Source: Acholeplasma sp. (GTDB taxonomy: Bacteria; Bacillota_I; Bacilli_A; Acholeplasmatales; Acholeplasmataceae). Taken from it: DNA of 52,085 bases. Position 1 is the first letter of the stretch. Each line of letters opens with the position of its first letter. The translations under genes and the position numbers were made by a program. The notes beneath the pieces are model-generated. The model was not told where the DNA came from and searched no databases. It worked only from the letters and a program-made list of their open reading frames with translations. The stretch is from the NCBI GenBank assembly GCA_012838065.1, contig DUPY01000049.1, forward strand, positions 1-52,085. The letters run 5' to 3'. This document shows, piece by piece, positions 2,680 to 9,640 of the stretch.

Positions 2680-2719
2680 AAAAAAAGCCAATTATCATTA
2701 TTTCTAATGACAACTGGCT
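2680..2719 (-). terminator. Riboswitch expression-platform terminator
   Basis: The stem arms at 2686-2700 and 2705-2719 pair over 15 positions (two G-U) around a 4-base loop. Seven U residues follow on the minus-strand RNA. The 5' arm begins with the AGCCAG that is also the 3' strand of aptamer P1, so the aptamer and the terminator compete for it. Ligand binding should therefore favour read-through, making this an ON switch. Confidence 0.85.
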
Positions 2720-2780
2720 ACCATTTCAGGCCCTTTAGTTTTGCGTCCCTAAGTTTCCCTAGGTTTGCCTTTTACATTAA
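2706..2780 (-). promoter_or_regulatory. Cyclic-di-GMP-I (GEMM) riboswitch aptamer
   Basis: On the minus strand the RNA contains the conserved GEMM-I elements in order: GGCAAACC, a helix capped by a GAAA tetraloop (CCTAGG-GAAA-CTTAGG with one G-U pair), the hallmark GGGACGCAAA, GGGCC, and ATGGTAGCCAG. The outer P1 helix would pair GGC and AATG near the 5' side with GCC and CATT on the 3' side. The aptamer lies 50-120 bases upstream of the first surface-protein gene, in sense orientation. The upstream neighbours are GGDEF/EAL genes that make and break the ligand. Confidence 0.92.
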
Positions 2781-2934: not shown

Positions 2935-4431
2935 TTATTCGTTTTCTTTCTTTGGATTAACTTCAACATTTTCGTTTGGTTGTGTATGTGTTTCTTTTTC
3001 ATTCTCTTCTAAATCAATTGGCATAATTAAGAAATTTTCAATAAATGTCTTCAATATTTTTAAATCGATCGGTTTTGAAATCAAATACCCTTGAACATAC
3101 TCAATACCTGTTGCTTGTACTTTCTTGACATCTTTTATATCTTCAACAGCTTCACAAATAATATCGACTTGTTTTTCTTTTGCATAATCAAGTAATACTT
3201 GAAGTGTTTTTTTAGCGACAAATGATTCATCGTATAAATACTTCATATCGACTTTAATAATGTCAATTCCTAATTGTTCAGCACGCTCTAAGGATCCATA
3301 ATCTAATCCAAACCCATCAACTGCAAGTTTAAATCCAATAAGTTTAAGTCTCTTTAATGTGTCGTTTACAGTTTTATCTTTTTCAAACAATGCAAATTCG
3401 CCCATCTCTAGTACGATATTTTCTGGTTGAATTTTATGTTTTTTTAATATTTTTTGAAAATTAATAGCCAAAGTCTCGTCCAGCAACTGTTTCGCACTTA
3501 AGTTAATGCTTACTTTAAATGGATAAGGTAATACTTTAGATAATTCACTATAGGTTTTTAATATTGTTTCAAATCCCCATTGACCAACCCAGTGAATATC
3601 ACCGGATTGTTCCATGATGTTAATAAATTTATTTGGTGCAAGCACACCTAATGTTGGATGGTTCCAACGAATAAGTGCTTCAAATCCATAAAATTTTTTA
3701 CTATTAACATTGATCATTGGCTGATAATAAAGTAAGAATTCTTTATTTTCAATAGCGCTTCGTATTTGATAGAAATATTCAACAAAGTCTTCATTATCAT
3801 TTTGTGACTCTGAATAAACCAAACAATCGTTACCACCGTTTTTCTTAACATTGTAAATCGCAATTTTTAACGATTCGATTAAGTCTTTTACTGTTCCACC
3901 ATGTTGTGGGTAGTAACATAAGGCTATCGATGCTGTTTGTTCAATTTCAGTGTCACCATACAATTCAATCTTTTCACGAATTTCTTTTAACACATTATTT
4001 GCATACTCTAATGTTTCTAGTCGATCAAAGTTTGGAATAAATATTAAGAACTCATCCCCCTTATAACGTCCAATACTAATATCGCGAGGTAATGTTTTTT
4101 TAATACGTTGGACAATTGTTGTTAAAATCTTTTTAGCTTCTTTTTGACCAAAGGCACTACTTAAATCGCTAAAATTGTCTAAATCGACATACATTAAGGT
4201 GAAATTGCCTAAATTTCCAAGTTTTGCAATGTTACCACTAATTAAGCTATGCATGGCTGATTTCGTTAAAACACCTTCAATGTGTGTACTTTTTTCTTCT
4301 TTTGTAAGCTGAATATCTTTTTTCACCCAAAGAAAGAGTAAATATGTTAAGTATGCAAGTAATCCAATAATAAGAATTGTGCCAATAACTGCAAATACTT
4401 TATTGTCAAATAAACTTTGTAGTACAAACAC
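2935..4431 (-). CDS. Degenerate GGDEF-EAL membrane protein, possible c-di-GMP receptor
   Basis: This protein of 498 residues has one N-terminal membrane helix (about 10-37), a GGDEF domain (about 55-210), an EAL domain (about 220-470) and a charged C-terminal tail. The GGDEF signature reads KGDEF (about residue 125), so cyclase activity is doubtful. The EAL motif itself is present in GFEALIRW (about 250), as are SINLS, the VLEMGE glutamate, IIKVD and QGYLISKP. However, the metal-site DDFG motif is DGFG (about 373), losing the second aspartate. It may be a weak phosphodiesterase or a ligand-binding sensor. The start is GTG, sharing its G with the stop of the upstream gene and preceded by AGGTGG. 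It is the last gene of the three-gene signalling cluster. Confidence 0.85.
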   Translation of the reverse strand: MFVLQSLFDNKVFAVIGTILIIGLLAYLTYLLFLWVKKDIQLTKEEKSTHIEGVLTKSAMHSLISGNIAKLGNLGNFTLMYVDLDNFSDLSSAFGQKEAKKILTTIVQRIKKTLPRDISIGRYKGDEFLIFIPNFDRLETLEYANNVLKEIREKIELYGDTEIEQTASIALCYYPQHGGTVKDLIESLKIAIYNVKKNGGNDCLVYSESQNDNEDFVEYFYQIRSAIENKEFLLYYQPMINVNSKKFYGFEALIRWNHPTLGVLAPNKFINIMEQSGDIHWVGQWGFETILKTYSELSKVLPYPFKVSINLSAKQLLDETLAINFQKILKKHKIQPENIVLEMGEFALFEKDKTVNDTLKRLKLIGFKLAVDGFGLDYGSLERAEQLGIDIIKVDMKYLYDESFVAKKTLQVLLDYAKEKQVDIICEAVEDIKDVKKVQATGIEYVQGYLISKPIDLKILKTFIENFLIMPIDLEENEKETHTQPNENVEVNPKKENE

Positions 4432-6980
4432 TAACGTCCACCTCGCTTTTTCTTAATTACATCCGTATATAACGGTTCTTTGTTTTCATTATACTTCTTA
4501 AGTAGTTGAATTGCATCATCCATATTTACAGCTTTACTTAGTAAATATCCTTGAATAATGCTGCAATTTGCTTTATATAAGAACTGATATTGTTCTTTTG
4601 TTTCAACACCTTCTGCAATAACTTCAACATTTAAGTTTTTAGCAAGTGTTGTAATCATTCCGATAATTGCTTTTGAGTATTTATCATTTGGTAAATGCAT
4701 AATAAATGCTCTATCAATTTTAATTGCGTCAAATGGTAATTCTTGAAGATATTGTAGTGAACTATAACCCGTACCAAAATCATCTAAGTGAATAACAATA
4801 CCGGCGTTTTTAAGAATTTTAATTTTTTCGACAATAACATCGAAGGATGACATTAAAAATGTTTCTGTAATTTCAATAGCTATACCATTTGGTTCAACAT
4901 CATACGTTTGAAGTTTATCCATAAATTCACTAATAAAACCAGCTTGTAGCATTTGTGCTGGTGAAACATTTAGTGACAACTTAACATTATATTTTTCCAG
5001 TTGTTTTGCAATCTTCAATGTTTTATCGATAACAATGCGACCAATATCGATGATCATGTTGTTACTTTCAGCAAGTTGAATAAACTCAGAAGGTGAGTTG
5101 TTTTTATATTTTTCATTTTCCCAACGAATTAAAGCTTCAAAACTTACAATTCTTTCTTTATATATATCATATTGAGGTTGAAGATACATTGTAAACTCAT
5201 CGTTTAAAATAGCATTTTGTAAATCAACAGCCATTTGTTTTCTCGATGCCGTCATTAAGTCAACGTTTGAATCGTAGTACACAATTTTCTTCTTGACTTG
5301 TTTTGCATAATCCAGTGATTGAATGGTTCGATCATATATGTCATCAAACGTCAATGATTCGTCAACAGCTTGTAAATAATAAATACCCGCTCTAAGTTCA
5401 ATAACTAATTTACTCTTTTCAATTTCAAGTGGTTTTTCAAAGGTATCCATAAGTTCATCAACGAACTTTCTAAGTTGGTCTTCTGTAAAATCAGCAATTG
5501 TAACAATAAACTGGTCTTTTTGAACATTGTATACCGTTGATTTCATATTTTTAACATAATCAAGAATAAGTTTTGATACATTGACTAAAGCTAAGTCTGC
5601 TGTATCAACGCCAAGTAATTGATTAATGTTTTTAAAATTAATAATATCTAATGCAAGAACACTTAAACTGCGTTTCAAGTATATTTTTTCTTTAATATCT
5701 GTTTCTAAATCTTGTTGTAAGTGATTAATGTTTGGTAAATTAGTCGTTTGATGATACAACGCAATACCACGGTAAGTTTGGAAACTTAAGTCGCGCGCTG
5801 TAATATCTTCACCAATTAATTCAAAGCCTCTTGATGAGCGAATTGGTAAAAATCGTAAGACTACTTCTTTTTCATCGTTGGTAAATAAAACATTGAAGGG
5901 TTGTTGTCGTTCGATGTTACGCATGATATCACGTGCTTCAATATTTGCATTAAAACTTAAATCATTAATCGTTTTATATTTTTTATAATCAGGTACTCTG
6001 TCCTTAAATGCTTTATTAACACGTGTAATTTTACCATCACTATTGACTTGAATAATTGGTGATTTTACATAAAAATATGTGAGTTTCGCATTTTCAATAT
6101 CGCTATTTTTAATATAAATGAGTCGTTGTGAGAAGTAAATTGCAATTGAGAATGTTAAAAGAATAAGTAACATAATAAGTGCCATGATCAATATAAGTGT
6201 GCCGTATTGACGATACAAATCATCGTATTTAAATGTCATAACACCATAGATTGTTGTAACACCATCAATGACGATAGGTAAAGATGATAAAAATAATTCC
6301 TCACCGTTTAATGTAAATACTTTTATTGTTTGAGGTTCATTATTTAAAAACTTACCATCGACAATAAAGGATGATGTATTTCTTAAATAATTGTATAAAT
6401 ATTTATGATTATTTGTTTGCGGATAATAAATATAGTTGTCACTTGATACCATCATAAAATCATGTGTTTTATTATGCATTTTAACAAATGGTTCTACATA
6501 ACTTTCAATATCAAATAAGCCTACAAGGTTTTCATGTTTAAAAACACCGTAAAACTTTGAACTTGGATAATTATCAATAATTTCATTTAAACTATAAATT
6601 GTAAATCCTTGGTCGTAATAATCACTTTTAAGGACATAGTTTTGGTTTAATGTATATTCTGCGTCATCAATAGTTATTTTGTTGTTCGTAATTTTTCCAA
6701 AGTGTTCGAAAGTTAATCCTCTTGTAGAAACAAAACTTGATTTATTTTGGGTTAAATCGGTTAAATCGTTATTAGAGATTGTTAAAAAATATGCATAATC
6801 ATCAACGATCATTGATTTCATACTTTGGTTAATAGTCTCGGTAATTCGATTGGTATCATTTTTAAGTGTATCAACAACATATAGATTAGAAAACCATAGA
6901 TAAAAGAGTGTGCCTCCCATAAAGACAAACACTTGGATAATGATGAATGTAACATAAAGTTTTAGTGTGTACTTCTTCAT
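4431..6980 (-). CDS. Membrane sensor c-di-GMP phosphodiesterase (degenerate GGDEF, intact EAL)
   Basis: This protein of 849 residues has two transmembrane helices (about 8-32 and 262-287) that bracket an extracellular sensor region of about 230 residues resembling a Cache-type domain. A PAS-like segment (about 305-395), a GGDEF domain (about 410-565) and an EAL domain (about 585-835) follow. The GGDEF signature is replaced by QKDQF (about residue 487), so no cyclase activity is expected. The EAL domain keeps its signatures: FEALIRW, LNVSP, EITE, DDFGTGYSSL, IKID, AEGVE and QGYLLSKA. The prediction is hydrolysis of cyclic-di-GMP to pGpG, gated by an external signal. The gene follows the cyclase gene after 18 bases and overlaps the next gene by one base, so the three form an operon. 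Confidence 0.88.
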   Translation of the reverse strand: MKKYTLKLYVTFIIIQVFVFMGGTLFYLWFSNLYVVDTLKNDTNRITETINQSMKSMIVDDYAYFLTISNNDLTDLTQNKSSFVSTRGLTFEHFGKITNNKITIDDAEYTLNQNYVLKSDYYDQGFTIYSLNEIIDNYPSSKFYGVFKHENLVGLFDIESYVEPFVKMHNKTHDFMMVSSDNYIYYPQTNNHKYLYNYLRNTSSFIVDGKFLNNEPQTIKVFTLNGEELFLSSLPIVIDGVTTIYGVMTFKYDDLYRQYGTLILIMALIMLLILLTFSIAIYFSQRLIYIKNSDIENAKLTYFYVKSPIIQVNSDGKITRVNKAFKDRVPDYKKYKTINDLSFNANIEARDIMRNIERQQPFNVLFTNDEKEVVLRFLPIRSSRGFELIGEDITARDLSFQTYRGIALYHQTTNLPNINHLQQDLETDIKEKIYLKRSLSVLALDIINFKNINQLLGVDTADLALVNVSKLILDYVKNMKSTVYNVQKDQFIVTIADFTEDQLRKFVDELMDTFEKPLEIEKSKLVIELRAGIYYLQAVDESLTFDDIYDRTIQSLDYAKQVKKKIVYYDSNVDLMTASRKQMAVDLQNAILNDEFTMYLQPQYDIYKERIVSFEALIRWENEKYKNNSPSEFIQLAESNNMIIDIGRIVIDKTLKIAKQLEKYNVKLSLNVSPAQMLQAGFISEFMDKLQTYDVEPNGIAIEITETFLMSSFDVIVEKIKILKNAGIVIHLDDFGTGYSSLQYLQELPFDAIKIDRAFIMHLPNDKYSKAIIGMITTLAKNLNVEVIAEGVETKEQYQFLYKANCSIIQGYLLSKAVNMDDAIQLLKKYNENKEPLYTDVIKKKRGGR

Positions 6981-6998: not shown

Positions 6999-8555
6999 TT
7001 ATTTATCAAAAAATTTGTATGCTTTTCCCTCTTTTTTTGCTTGATACATCGCCTGATCTGCTTCGTTAATTAATTGTACTACAGTTTCATTGTTTGTAAA
7101 CATAGATATTCCGATACTTACGCTTGCAAAATACTTCCGATTATTTAAAATAATCGGTTCTTTTGCAAAGTTAATAAATGATTTTATTTTTTCTTCTAAG
7201 ATATTTAAATCCATATTATCTTCAATATGAATAATAAATTCATCGCCACCGTATCGTGCGATGATACTATCGCTAAAATAATAAAATAGTTTGCGTGATA
7301 TTTCCATTAATACTTCATCACCAAGGCTATGACCAAAACTGTCGTTGAATTGTTTAAAATCGTTCACATCCATAAATAAAATATAATGTTTTTTAGATTT
7401 TTCATACGATAATCTTTCATCAACTTTGTCTAAAAAATATGTACGATTGTATGCGGCAGTTAATGGATCTTTTTCAAGTAATAATAAAATGCGCTTGTTA
7501 CGAGATTGGAAATCACTTAAATCTTTATAGATACCTACATAACTTAAGGCTTTAGTTTCTTCATCAATCAATGTAAAGATTTGAAGCCAAACTGGAAATG
7601 CAACACCATTTTGTTTCATATTCCACATTTCACCTTGCCAATAACCTTTGGTATTAATGCTTTGCCACATTGATTGATAAAATGCTTCGTTATGATATCC
7701 ACTATAGAGCAATTTTTTTGCTCGGCGTCCAATAACTTTATTCGCTTCAAATTCTGTCATATTCAAAAACGCTTCATTGGCAAATACAATTCTTAAAGAC
7801 TCATCTGTTATAATAACACCATCGTTATAATGATGAATGATTTTTTTGAAAATGGATAGTTTATGTTCATTCAATTGATTTTCAGTAATGTTTCGATATG
7901 TAATTTGCATTGCCGTAACTTTATTTTCTCTTACCGATGGTATTAGAATAACTTGGCAGTATATCGTTTCACCATGAATATCTTTAAGTGAACGTAGGTT
8001 TAATGTTTCAAATGTACTTTTTTCACTAAACAACGTATCAATTTTATGAATAACTCGCGTATCTTTTTCTAGCTCTACAATATGCTTTCCAGTAATAGAT
8101 TCTTCTGTCGTTTTAAAAAGTTTTAAATATGCATCATTAGCTGCGATGACACGCTGATCTTTACCAATAAGTAAGATTGCGTCAATCGTATGTTGAAACC
8201 CATTGCGAATTAAATGACTTGTTTCATAGCCTTTCAACTCAAAAAATTTCAAACTAAAGTAAGTCCTTTGTTTGAATTCAATCTTGTCAATAAATGCAGT
8301 AAATACTTTTTTATAATCGAGTGTACTTACATTTACTGGCTCATATATATCCACTTTGTTGTCAAGTTGATCTACAATTTTAATCGCTTCATTAAGAAAA
8401 TCCGTTACGATCAAACCTTCTTTAAGGTCTTTTAATACTTGGCGAGCTTCATTGTTAAACTGAATAACTTTGCCATTTTCGTCCAAAATAATGGTTGGAA
8501 ATGCATTGCGCGCTTTCAGCAAGATTGTTTTTGCATAATCGTTCATTTGATTCAT
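6999..8555 (-). CDS. Diguanylate cyclase with three PAS domains
   Basis: This soluble protein of about 518 residues has three PAS-type segments (roughly 10-110, 120-230 and 240-355). The last has a PAC-like extension, and a C-terminal GGDEF domain occupies about 360-515. The signature RYGGDEF (about residue 435) and the upstream FMDVNDFK metal-binding segment are intact. It should make cyclic-di-GMP from two GTP. The product-inhibition site (RxxD, five residues before GGDEF) is absent, with Ser where Asp should be, so feedback inhibition is not expected. No membrane helix is seen, so signals are probably cytoplasmic. GTG (8556-8558) and ATG (8553-8555) are adjacent possible starts behind GGAG; ATG is chosen. 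It heads the signalling operon. Confidence 0.88.
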   Translation of the reverse strand: MNQMNDYAKTILLKARNAFPTIILDENGKVIQFNNEARQVLKDLKEGLIVTDFLNEAIKIVDQLDNKVDIYEPVNVSTLDYKKVFTAFIDKIEFKQRTYFSLKFFELKGYETSHLIRNGFQHTIDAILLIGKDQRVIAANDAYLKLFKTTEESITGKHIVELEKDTRVIHKIDTLFSEKSTFETLNLRSLKDIHGETIYCQVILIPSVRENKVTAMQITYRNITENQLNEHKLSIFKKIIHHYNDGVIITDESLRIVFANEAFLNMTEFEANKVIGRRAKKLLYSGYHNEAFYQSMWQSINTKGYWQGEMWNMKQNGVAFPVWLQIFTLIDEETKALSYVGIYKDLSDFQSRNKRILLLLEKDPLTAAYNRTYFLDKVDERLSYEKSKKHYILFMDVNDFKQFNDSFGHSLGDEVLMEISRKLFYYFSDSIIARYGGDEFIIHIEDNMDLNILEEKIKSFINFAKEPIILNNRKYFASVSIGISMFTNNETVVQLINEADQAMYQAKKEGKAYKFFDK

Positions 8556-8596
8556 CACGACATCTACTCCTATTTTGAATATCCATTTATAAGAAT

Positions 8597-8662: not shown

Positions 8663-9640
8663 TTATTGCCAGTCACCGTTAAAAATTGAATTTTTAACAA
8701 TGACGTAATCAACTTTTTTAATGGACTCAATATCTTTACCACCAGCATATGAAATGGCTGATTGTAAATCTTCTTGCATCTCTTTAAGAGTTAAATGTAT
8801 TGGTCCCTTATTTGGTATTAAGATTTTTTTACCTTCAACATTTAACCTTGTCCCTTTTTGATACTCTGATGCACTACCAAAATACTCTTTCATCGGTTTT
8901 TCATTGACAATAACTGTTTTTCCTGGTGATTCTTCATGACCTGCAAACAATGAGCCAATCATGCATAGTGTTGCACCAAAGCGAATGGATTTTGCGATAT
9001 CTCCGTGATTACGAATACCACCATCAGCAATTAATGGTTTGCGGGCGACCTTGCTACATCGATGTAGTGCAGCCAATTGCCACCCACCAGTACCAAAACC
9101 AGTTTTCAATTTTGTAATGCATACTTTTCCTGGTCCAATGCCGACTTTCGTTGCGTCGGCACCTGCATTCTCTAATTCTCTTACAGCTTCAGGTGTTGCT
9201 ACATTACCCGCAATAACAAACGTTTGTGGTAAATAAACTTTGATATGTTTAATCATATTTATGACTAAATCAGAATGTCCATGTGCGATATCAATTGTTA
9301 TATAGTCAGGAATCAAATCAAGCTCCTTTAATTTTCTAACAAATTCAAACTCTTGATCTTTAACACCGACGCTTATGGAAGAAATTAATTTTTTATGCTT
9401 CATCAATTTAATAAATGGTAGTCGTGATGCTTCATCAAAGCGATGCATAATGTAAAAATAACCATTTTCTGCTAGCCAAACAGCAAGTTTTTCATCAATA
9501 ATCGTTTGCATGTTCGCTGGCACAACCGGTAACTTAAATGTGTGATTACCAAAAACAACCGTCGTATCACACTCACTACGGCTTTTGACGATACACTTAT
9601 TCGGTATCAATTGAATGTCTTCATAATCAAATATATTCAT
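8663..9640 (-). CDS. guaC: GMP reductase
   Basis: This 325-residue TIM-barrel enzyme has the usual length for the bacterial (GuaC type 2) family. It catalyses NADPH-dependent reductive deamination of GMP to IMP, linking guanine salvage to adenine nucleotides. Visible signatures include ANMQT near residue 42, the substrate loop [10 protein letters not shown] with catalytic Cys at about 174, ADGGIR, and the MIGSLFAG phosphate-binding segment. A CBS domain is absent, which separates it from IMP dehydrogenase. An AAGGGG ribosome site precedes the ATG. It lies 43 bases after the UPF0316 gene on the same strand and probably shares its transcript. No purine riboswitch is seen in that gap. Confidence 0.93.

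Follow-up and report, generated by a model that had tools for sequence, protein, structure and literature searches.

Among the closest described systems, the Bc2 RNA upstream of cap, the gene for a collagen adhesion protein in Bacillus thuringiensis, has been shown experimentally to act as an ON switch by antitermination (PMC4933901). In the class to which Vc2 belongs, C92 is a ligand base contact and is counted among the highly conserved positions (PMC3764141), while G20 and C92 are less conserved than A47 (PMC9049102). A SipW-type peptidase is encoded beside secreted proteins with aromatic residues in the cleavage region in both tapA-sipW-tasA of Bacillus subtilis and sipW-bsaA of Clostridium perfringens (PMC9674648, PMC10151520, PMC7395162). 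For Acholeplasma laidlawii, 14 GGDEF/EAL proteins were reported in 2008 (PMC2408644); our literature search found no paper linking c-di-GMP riboswitches to Acholeplasma and no description of the surface operon analyzed here.

The operon lies on the minus strand of a 52,085-nt stretch of Acholeplasma sp. DNA, referred to throughout, at its full length, as the window. Its leader is best read, with a probability of about 0.8, as a c-di-GMP-I ON switch that works by antitermination and drives a SipW-linked surface operon fed by local c-di-GMP enzymes. The locus thus shares with Bc2-cap a GEMM-I aptamer, a (predicted) ON switch by antitermination and a surface-protein output, but Bc2-cap has one adhesin as its output, anchored to the wall of a walled cell, whereas the leader in the window precedes an operon of several genes with SipW and AAA+ members, no transpeptidase gene being present in the genome; c-di-GMP enzymes are encoded locally, and residue 92 is U. 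The resemblance to the two sipW operons lies in the SipW-like peptidases encoded beside secreted proteins and the aromatic cleavage-region residues; of the operons compared, only the present one has a McrB-like AAA+ ATPase, a coiled-coil protein, a second SipW-like gene and predicted control by a c-di-GMP riboswitch, and its surface proteins have no TasA sequence or fold match.

In a cmscan search of the whole window, the sole Rfam match above the gathering threshold was RF01051 (c-di-GMP-I, GEMM-I) at 2779–2706 on the minus strand, scoring 65.2 bits (E 1.4e-10; threshold 35 bits) over the full length of the model (1–87). The original prediction had placed a GEMM-I aptamer before the surface genes on this strand and proposed an RF01051 search as its check, which it passed, and all the landmarks were present: GGCAAA, GGGACGCAAA, the GAAA loop and ATGGTAGCC, with a P1 helix of AAUG/CAUU. 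Using the residue numbering of PMC3764141, the ligand contacts G20 and A47 are kept (G and A at model positions 11 and 38), the GNRA loop on P2 is GAAA and the interhelical C44-G83 contact is present as model C35 and G74. The aptamer differs from Vc2 and others of the family in a short P3 and in having U at the position of C92. Since G20 and C92 are less conserved than A47, the assignment to RF01051 by score and fold stands, and by its sequence the region 2706–2779 is a member of the c-di-GMP-I riboswitch class, with c-di-GMP as its predicted ligand.

Further upstream, a candidate promoter read by eye, TTGCAT-17-TAATAT with an extended -10 TGg (2818–2846, minus), is a weak consensus match that fell under the scan threshold; it would put the transcription start at about 2810. 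The Shine-Dalgarno sequence of the first operon gene, AAGGAGGTGG (2663–2672, minus), lies outside the terminator. The whole leader was 3.4 sd more stable than shuffled sequences, its fold being the terminator form. A second GEMM-I of this genome, on contig C67 (L074, 1870–2005, minus) downstream of rplQ, precedes a gene for a long secreted protein and retains C92. Its apparent terminator (AAGATAGACTAT...ATAGTCTATCTT) leaves the aptamer strand unused, and the terminator loop GCACTGGC is complementary to GCCAGTTGC of the aptamer, a pairing that could give a different switch logic.

Three surface-protein genes follow the riboswitch, as had been anticipated, the last being cut by the contig end. 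The first (1963–2658, minus) encodes a 231-aa protein, P231, with one membrane helix and a beta sandwich (AlphaFold2 mean pLDDT 84), and its family is conserved across the order and beyond. The second (1016–1966, minus) has a SipW-type signal peptide, STVTYAWLT, and a beta-rich ectodomain modelled at a mean pLDDT of 88.5 (AlphaFold2) without a PDB match; the truncated third (1–939, minus) carries ATTFAWFT. The second and third genes are related to each other, with signal peptides of the form TYAWLT/TFAWFT. The two complete surface proteins gave no Pfam, NCBIfam or PDB profile match and no Foldseek match at E ≤ 0.001, TasA/camelysin included. As none of these searches confirmed a TasA identity, the name SipW-linked surface proteins is used. 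Archaeal structures (bundling pili, cannulae, the 0406 filament) did appear in the Foldseek list for P231, but with TM 0.2–0.4 and E > 0.001 they are at most a lead. Of the SipW/TasA-like operon first proposed, the SipW link was supported and the TasA likeness was not confirmed; the part of the operon inside the window yielded no SipW gene, and the SipW-like genes found are on contig C23.

Contig C23 is the likely continuation of the operon because a C-terminus matching the third gene (VRIWIEGWDNEAYNAIF) stands at its end; no sequence overlap between contigs C23 and C34 was found. The gene order on C23 is a SipW-like peptidase, a 511-aa AAA+ protein, a charged, coiled-coil-like protein of 629 aa, and then another SipW-like peptidase; this succession of SipW-like genes and AAA+ family recurs in the reference loci. 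The first of these peptidases matched NF046067 at E 2.7e-23, yet with 82.5 bits against a cut-off of 190, and one C23 SipW-like copy passed TIGR02228. The 511-aa protein has N-terminal hydrophobic segments followed by an AAA+ domain with the motifs GISGTGKTS, VLDEMN and GTANKDDST. The profile of its family matched the McrB motor domain at E 1.2e-4 (hmmsearch, PDB), the nearest solved relative, and AAA_5 was matched in 6 of the 15 family members. The likeness to the McrB AAA+ GTPase domain thus comprises the motor-domain profile match and the Walker A, Walker B and sensor 1 motifs; unlike McrB, the C23 protein is apparently anchored in the membrane and belongs to a surface-protein operon, in which no McrC or nuclease gene was identified. 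On C23 (L073, 7765–14472, minus), three SipW-like peptidases are encoded within 7 kb among several AWFT-type secreted proteins, followed by proteins of 1132 and >950 aa.

The genes expected next door for making and breaking c-di-GMP are present, all three GGDEF/EAL genes being located upstream of the riboswitch on the minus strand. The nearest (2935–4431) encodes a membrane GGDEF-EAL protein with degenerate motifs (RYKGDEF, and VDGFGLDY for DDFGTGY) and is probably a sensor or receptor, not an enzyme, which makes it a candidate LapD-like c-di-GMP receptor. The next (4431–6980) encodes a membrane protein with a degenerate GGDEF and an intact EAL (FEALIRW, HLDDFGTGY), probably a c-di-GMP phosphodiesterase, and the third (6999–8558) a PAS-PAS-GGDEF protein with an intact RYGGDEF, by its motifs a probable diguanylate cyclase. 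Most loci that extend far enough upstream of the operon have this pair of phosphodiesterase and degenerate GGDEF-EAL protein there as well. The change of DDFG to DGFG was also seen in orthologues of the 2935–4431 gene from many genomes, usually beside an intact EAL partner. Just upstream of the cyclase, a gene of the IMP dehydrogenase/GMP reductase family (8663–9640, minus) provides a possible link to guanine nucleotide supply. The genome as a whole contains 8 GGDEF domains. No penicillin-binding transpeptidase was found in it, and murA gave a weak profile match far under the cut-off; the absence of the transpeptidase is consistent with the wall-less cell that had been supposed.

The arrangement had been thought unusual for the Acholeplasma side of the tree; this proved wrong. 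Within the order, GEMM-I was found in 91 of 160 genomes (20 of 28 genera), GGDEF in 128 and the first gene (P231) in 62. In one genus with genomes of 0.3–0.9 Mb, probably Phytoplasma, GEMM-I was absent and GGDEF almost absent among the members listed. A GEMM-I lay ≤450 nt upstream of the first gene in 23/26 and 16/18 copies from the order (39 of the 44 sampled), and this conserved placement makes the switch a regular part of the operon there. The corresponding figure in a named set was 20 of 40 copies, and many of those without GEMM-I are second copies or from outside the order; as half of these operon copies lack it, the machinery does not depend on the riboswitch. Named loci, gathered with the AAA+ gene alignment as query, included those of Acholeplasma granularum, A. 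oculi, Paracholeplasma vituli, Peloplasma aerotolerans, Anaeroplasma, Izemoplasmatales and Clostridia MAGs. Across 80 named loci (1.15 Mb) all GEMM-I cores were on the operon strand and none on the opposite one, with none in shuffled sequence. The genome taken as A. laidlawii (G005) has the complete locus and four GEMM-I, of which two stand ahead of the first gene and one further down. The riboswitch-operon arrangement is common to most free-living relatives, including A. laidlawii, a well-known cell-culture contaminant.

Several variants of this arrangement were observed. Tandem GEMM-I arrays of two to four copies spaced ~125 nt apart precede the operon in L042, L028, L053, L047 and others, and most copies in such arrays carry their own terminator. 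Two matches, L031 and L195, one of them in the genome taken as A. laidlawii, belong to the variant family c-di-GMP-I-GGC (RF03167), not RF01051. Operon copies without GEMM-I beside the first gene occur at L079 (17999–18709), L108, L112–L114 and L116–L117, some being second copies, and the machinery is thus also under other control.

The terminator of the original prediction was recovered at 2719–2686 (minus) as an intrinsic terminator of 15 pairs, with a T run at 2685–2680, in a terminator scan and in the folds; the scan found 1 against 0.2 expected from shuffles. Its 5′ arm, AGCCAGUUGUCAUU, is the aptamer 3′ strand, the P1 strand CAUU included, so that the terminator uses up aptamer bases including the 3′ strands of both P1 and P3, and the two folds are mutually exclusive. 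This exclusion is also seen in the energies: the minimum free energy fold of the growing transcript was a closed aptamer-like fold at 76–84 nt (-17.5 kcal/mol), whereas at 88 nt and beyond it was the terminator, with -32.8 kcal/mol at full length. The overlap, defined as pairing of five or more of the last eight aptamer bases, AGCCAGUU, in a hairpin followed by a T run, was kept in 42 of 48 operon leaders (33 loci), compared with 57 of 960 (6%) shuffled tails, and the 3′ arms of the terminators covary with the 5′ arms (GUCAUU with AAUGAUA, GCAUG with CAUGC). The sequences thus show the aptamer, the terminator and their mutual exclusion, the conservation of these three, and the gene order. Mutually exclusive folds of this type point to an ON switch in which the ligand blocks termination. 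P2 and P3 would fold first as RNA polymerase leaves the promoter; bound c-di-GMP would hold P1 (AAUG/CAUU) and the base of P3 closed, keeping the aptamer 3′ strand from forming the terminator's 5′ arm, so that the operon would be read, while without ligand the 15-bp terminator would win. The neighboring cyclase and phosphodiesterase are proposed to set the local c-di-GMP level. The operon product would be a membrane-anchored, SipW-processed surface layer or fibre, in whose assembly the membrane-bound McrB-like AAA+ ATPase and the coiled-coil protein may take part; the words layer or fibre are suggested by the signal peptides, the SipW genes and the gene context, the surface proteins being without a family or fold match.

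Closer inspection of the binding pocket showed that the equivalent of Vc2 C92 (model position 83) is a U in the covariance alignment, in a register set by the P3 pairs A40-U81 to U43-A78. An alternative register, with the C of GUC as residue 92, was provisionally rejected, since relatives that carry GCCAU share P1 with the window aptamer and depart from it at precisely that residue. U92 was present in 37 of 48 leaders of the operon and in none of the 31 second-site switches of such loci, with a Fisher p of 5e-13 that is overstated because the sequences are related. Among the matches listed, aptamers of other orders in the class have C92, with the exception of L192, which again lies before this first gene. 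In A. laidlawii and A. granularum, both sites carry C92. The substitution weakens any claim on the exact ligand, and U92 may lower the affinity or change the ligand.

These observations bear on how the switch is to be read. GEMM-I OFF switches exist in other bacteria, and on this general ground ligand binding in the window leader might promote termination; this is quite improbable here, as the terminator consumes the 3′ strands of P1 and P3 in nearly all leaders and the two folds cannot coexist. The altered residue 92 would also suit a degenerate remnant, an aptamer-like sequence without regulation retained as a terminator only, but dozens of diverged genomes retain the aptamer core along with the terminator arms, which leaves this the least probable reading. 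A change of ligand is somewhat easier to entertain, if still unlikely: with guanine recognized on one side and adenine on the other, a GEMM-I relative with G20 kept and U92 might prefer 3′,3′-cGAMP over c-di-GMP. The confinement of U92 to operon leaders and the retention of C outside the operon context (among the matches listed) are in keeping with this, as is the shift of Vc2 to c-di-AMP by a designed G20A/C92U double mutant (PMC9049102). However, a G-U wobble with c-di-GMP may merely reduce affinity, both C92 and U92 forms occupy the homologous site in related species, and the operon neighbors are EAL and GGDEF genes.

There is also a refinement of the ON-switch reading, which we consider possible though well short of even odds: U92 would tune the switch down, such that the operon leader needs high c-di-GMP and the downstream C92 switch low, setting an order of expression. 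The uneven distribution of U92 and C92 over the two sites, allowing for the relatedness of the sequences behind its p value, and the tandem copies ahead of the operon in many relatives agree with such tuning, but A. laidlawii and A. granularum with C92 at both sites, and the lack of a second switch inside the locus of the window genome, speak against it. The preferred reading, an ON switch for c-di-GMP, goes beyond the original prediction, which gave no switch direction and mentioned neither the operon part with the AAA+ gene and second SipW, nor an inactivated EAL partner, nor the C92U substitution. More tentatively, and a little nearer to an even chance than the tuning itself, the locus may encode an as yet undescribed machine for surface assembly in wall-less bacteria, controlled by c-di-GMP and made up of SipW-processed proteins, a membrane McrB-like AAA+ motor, a pseudo-enzyme GGDEF-EAL receptor and a natural G20/U92 leader aptamer whose threshold or choice of ligand differs from that of the C92 switch farther down the locus.

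What we regard as real is a conserved riboswitch of known class, with an unusual contact residue, before a surface operon that is undescribed as far as we could find. The split of C92 and U92 between two switches of one locus type offers a natural test of how this contact sets affinity or ligand choice. In a wall-less cell, wall-linked attachment of a matrix would be unavailable, and the conserved, predicted ON riboswitch together with the conserved surface operon provides a concrete and testable candidate output for c-di-GMP signalling in Acholeplasma.
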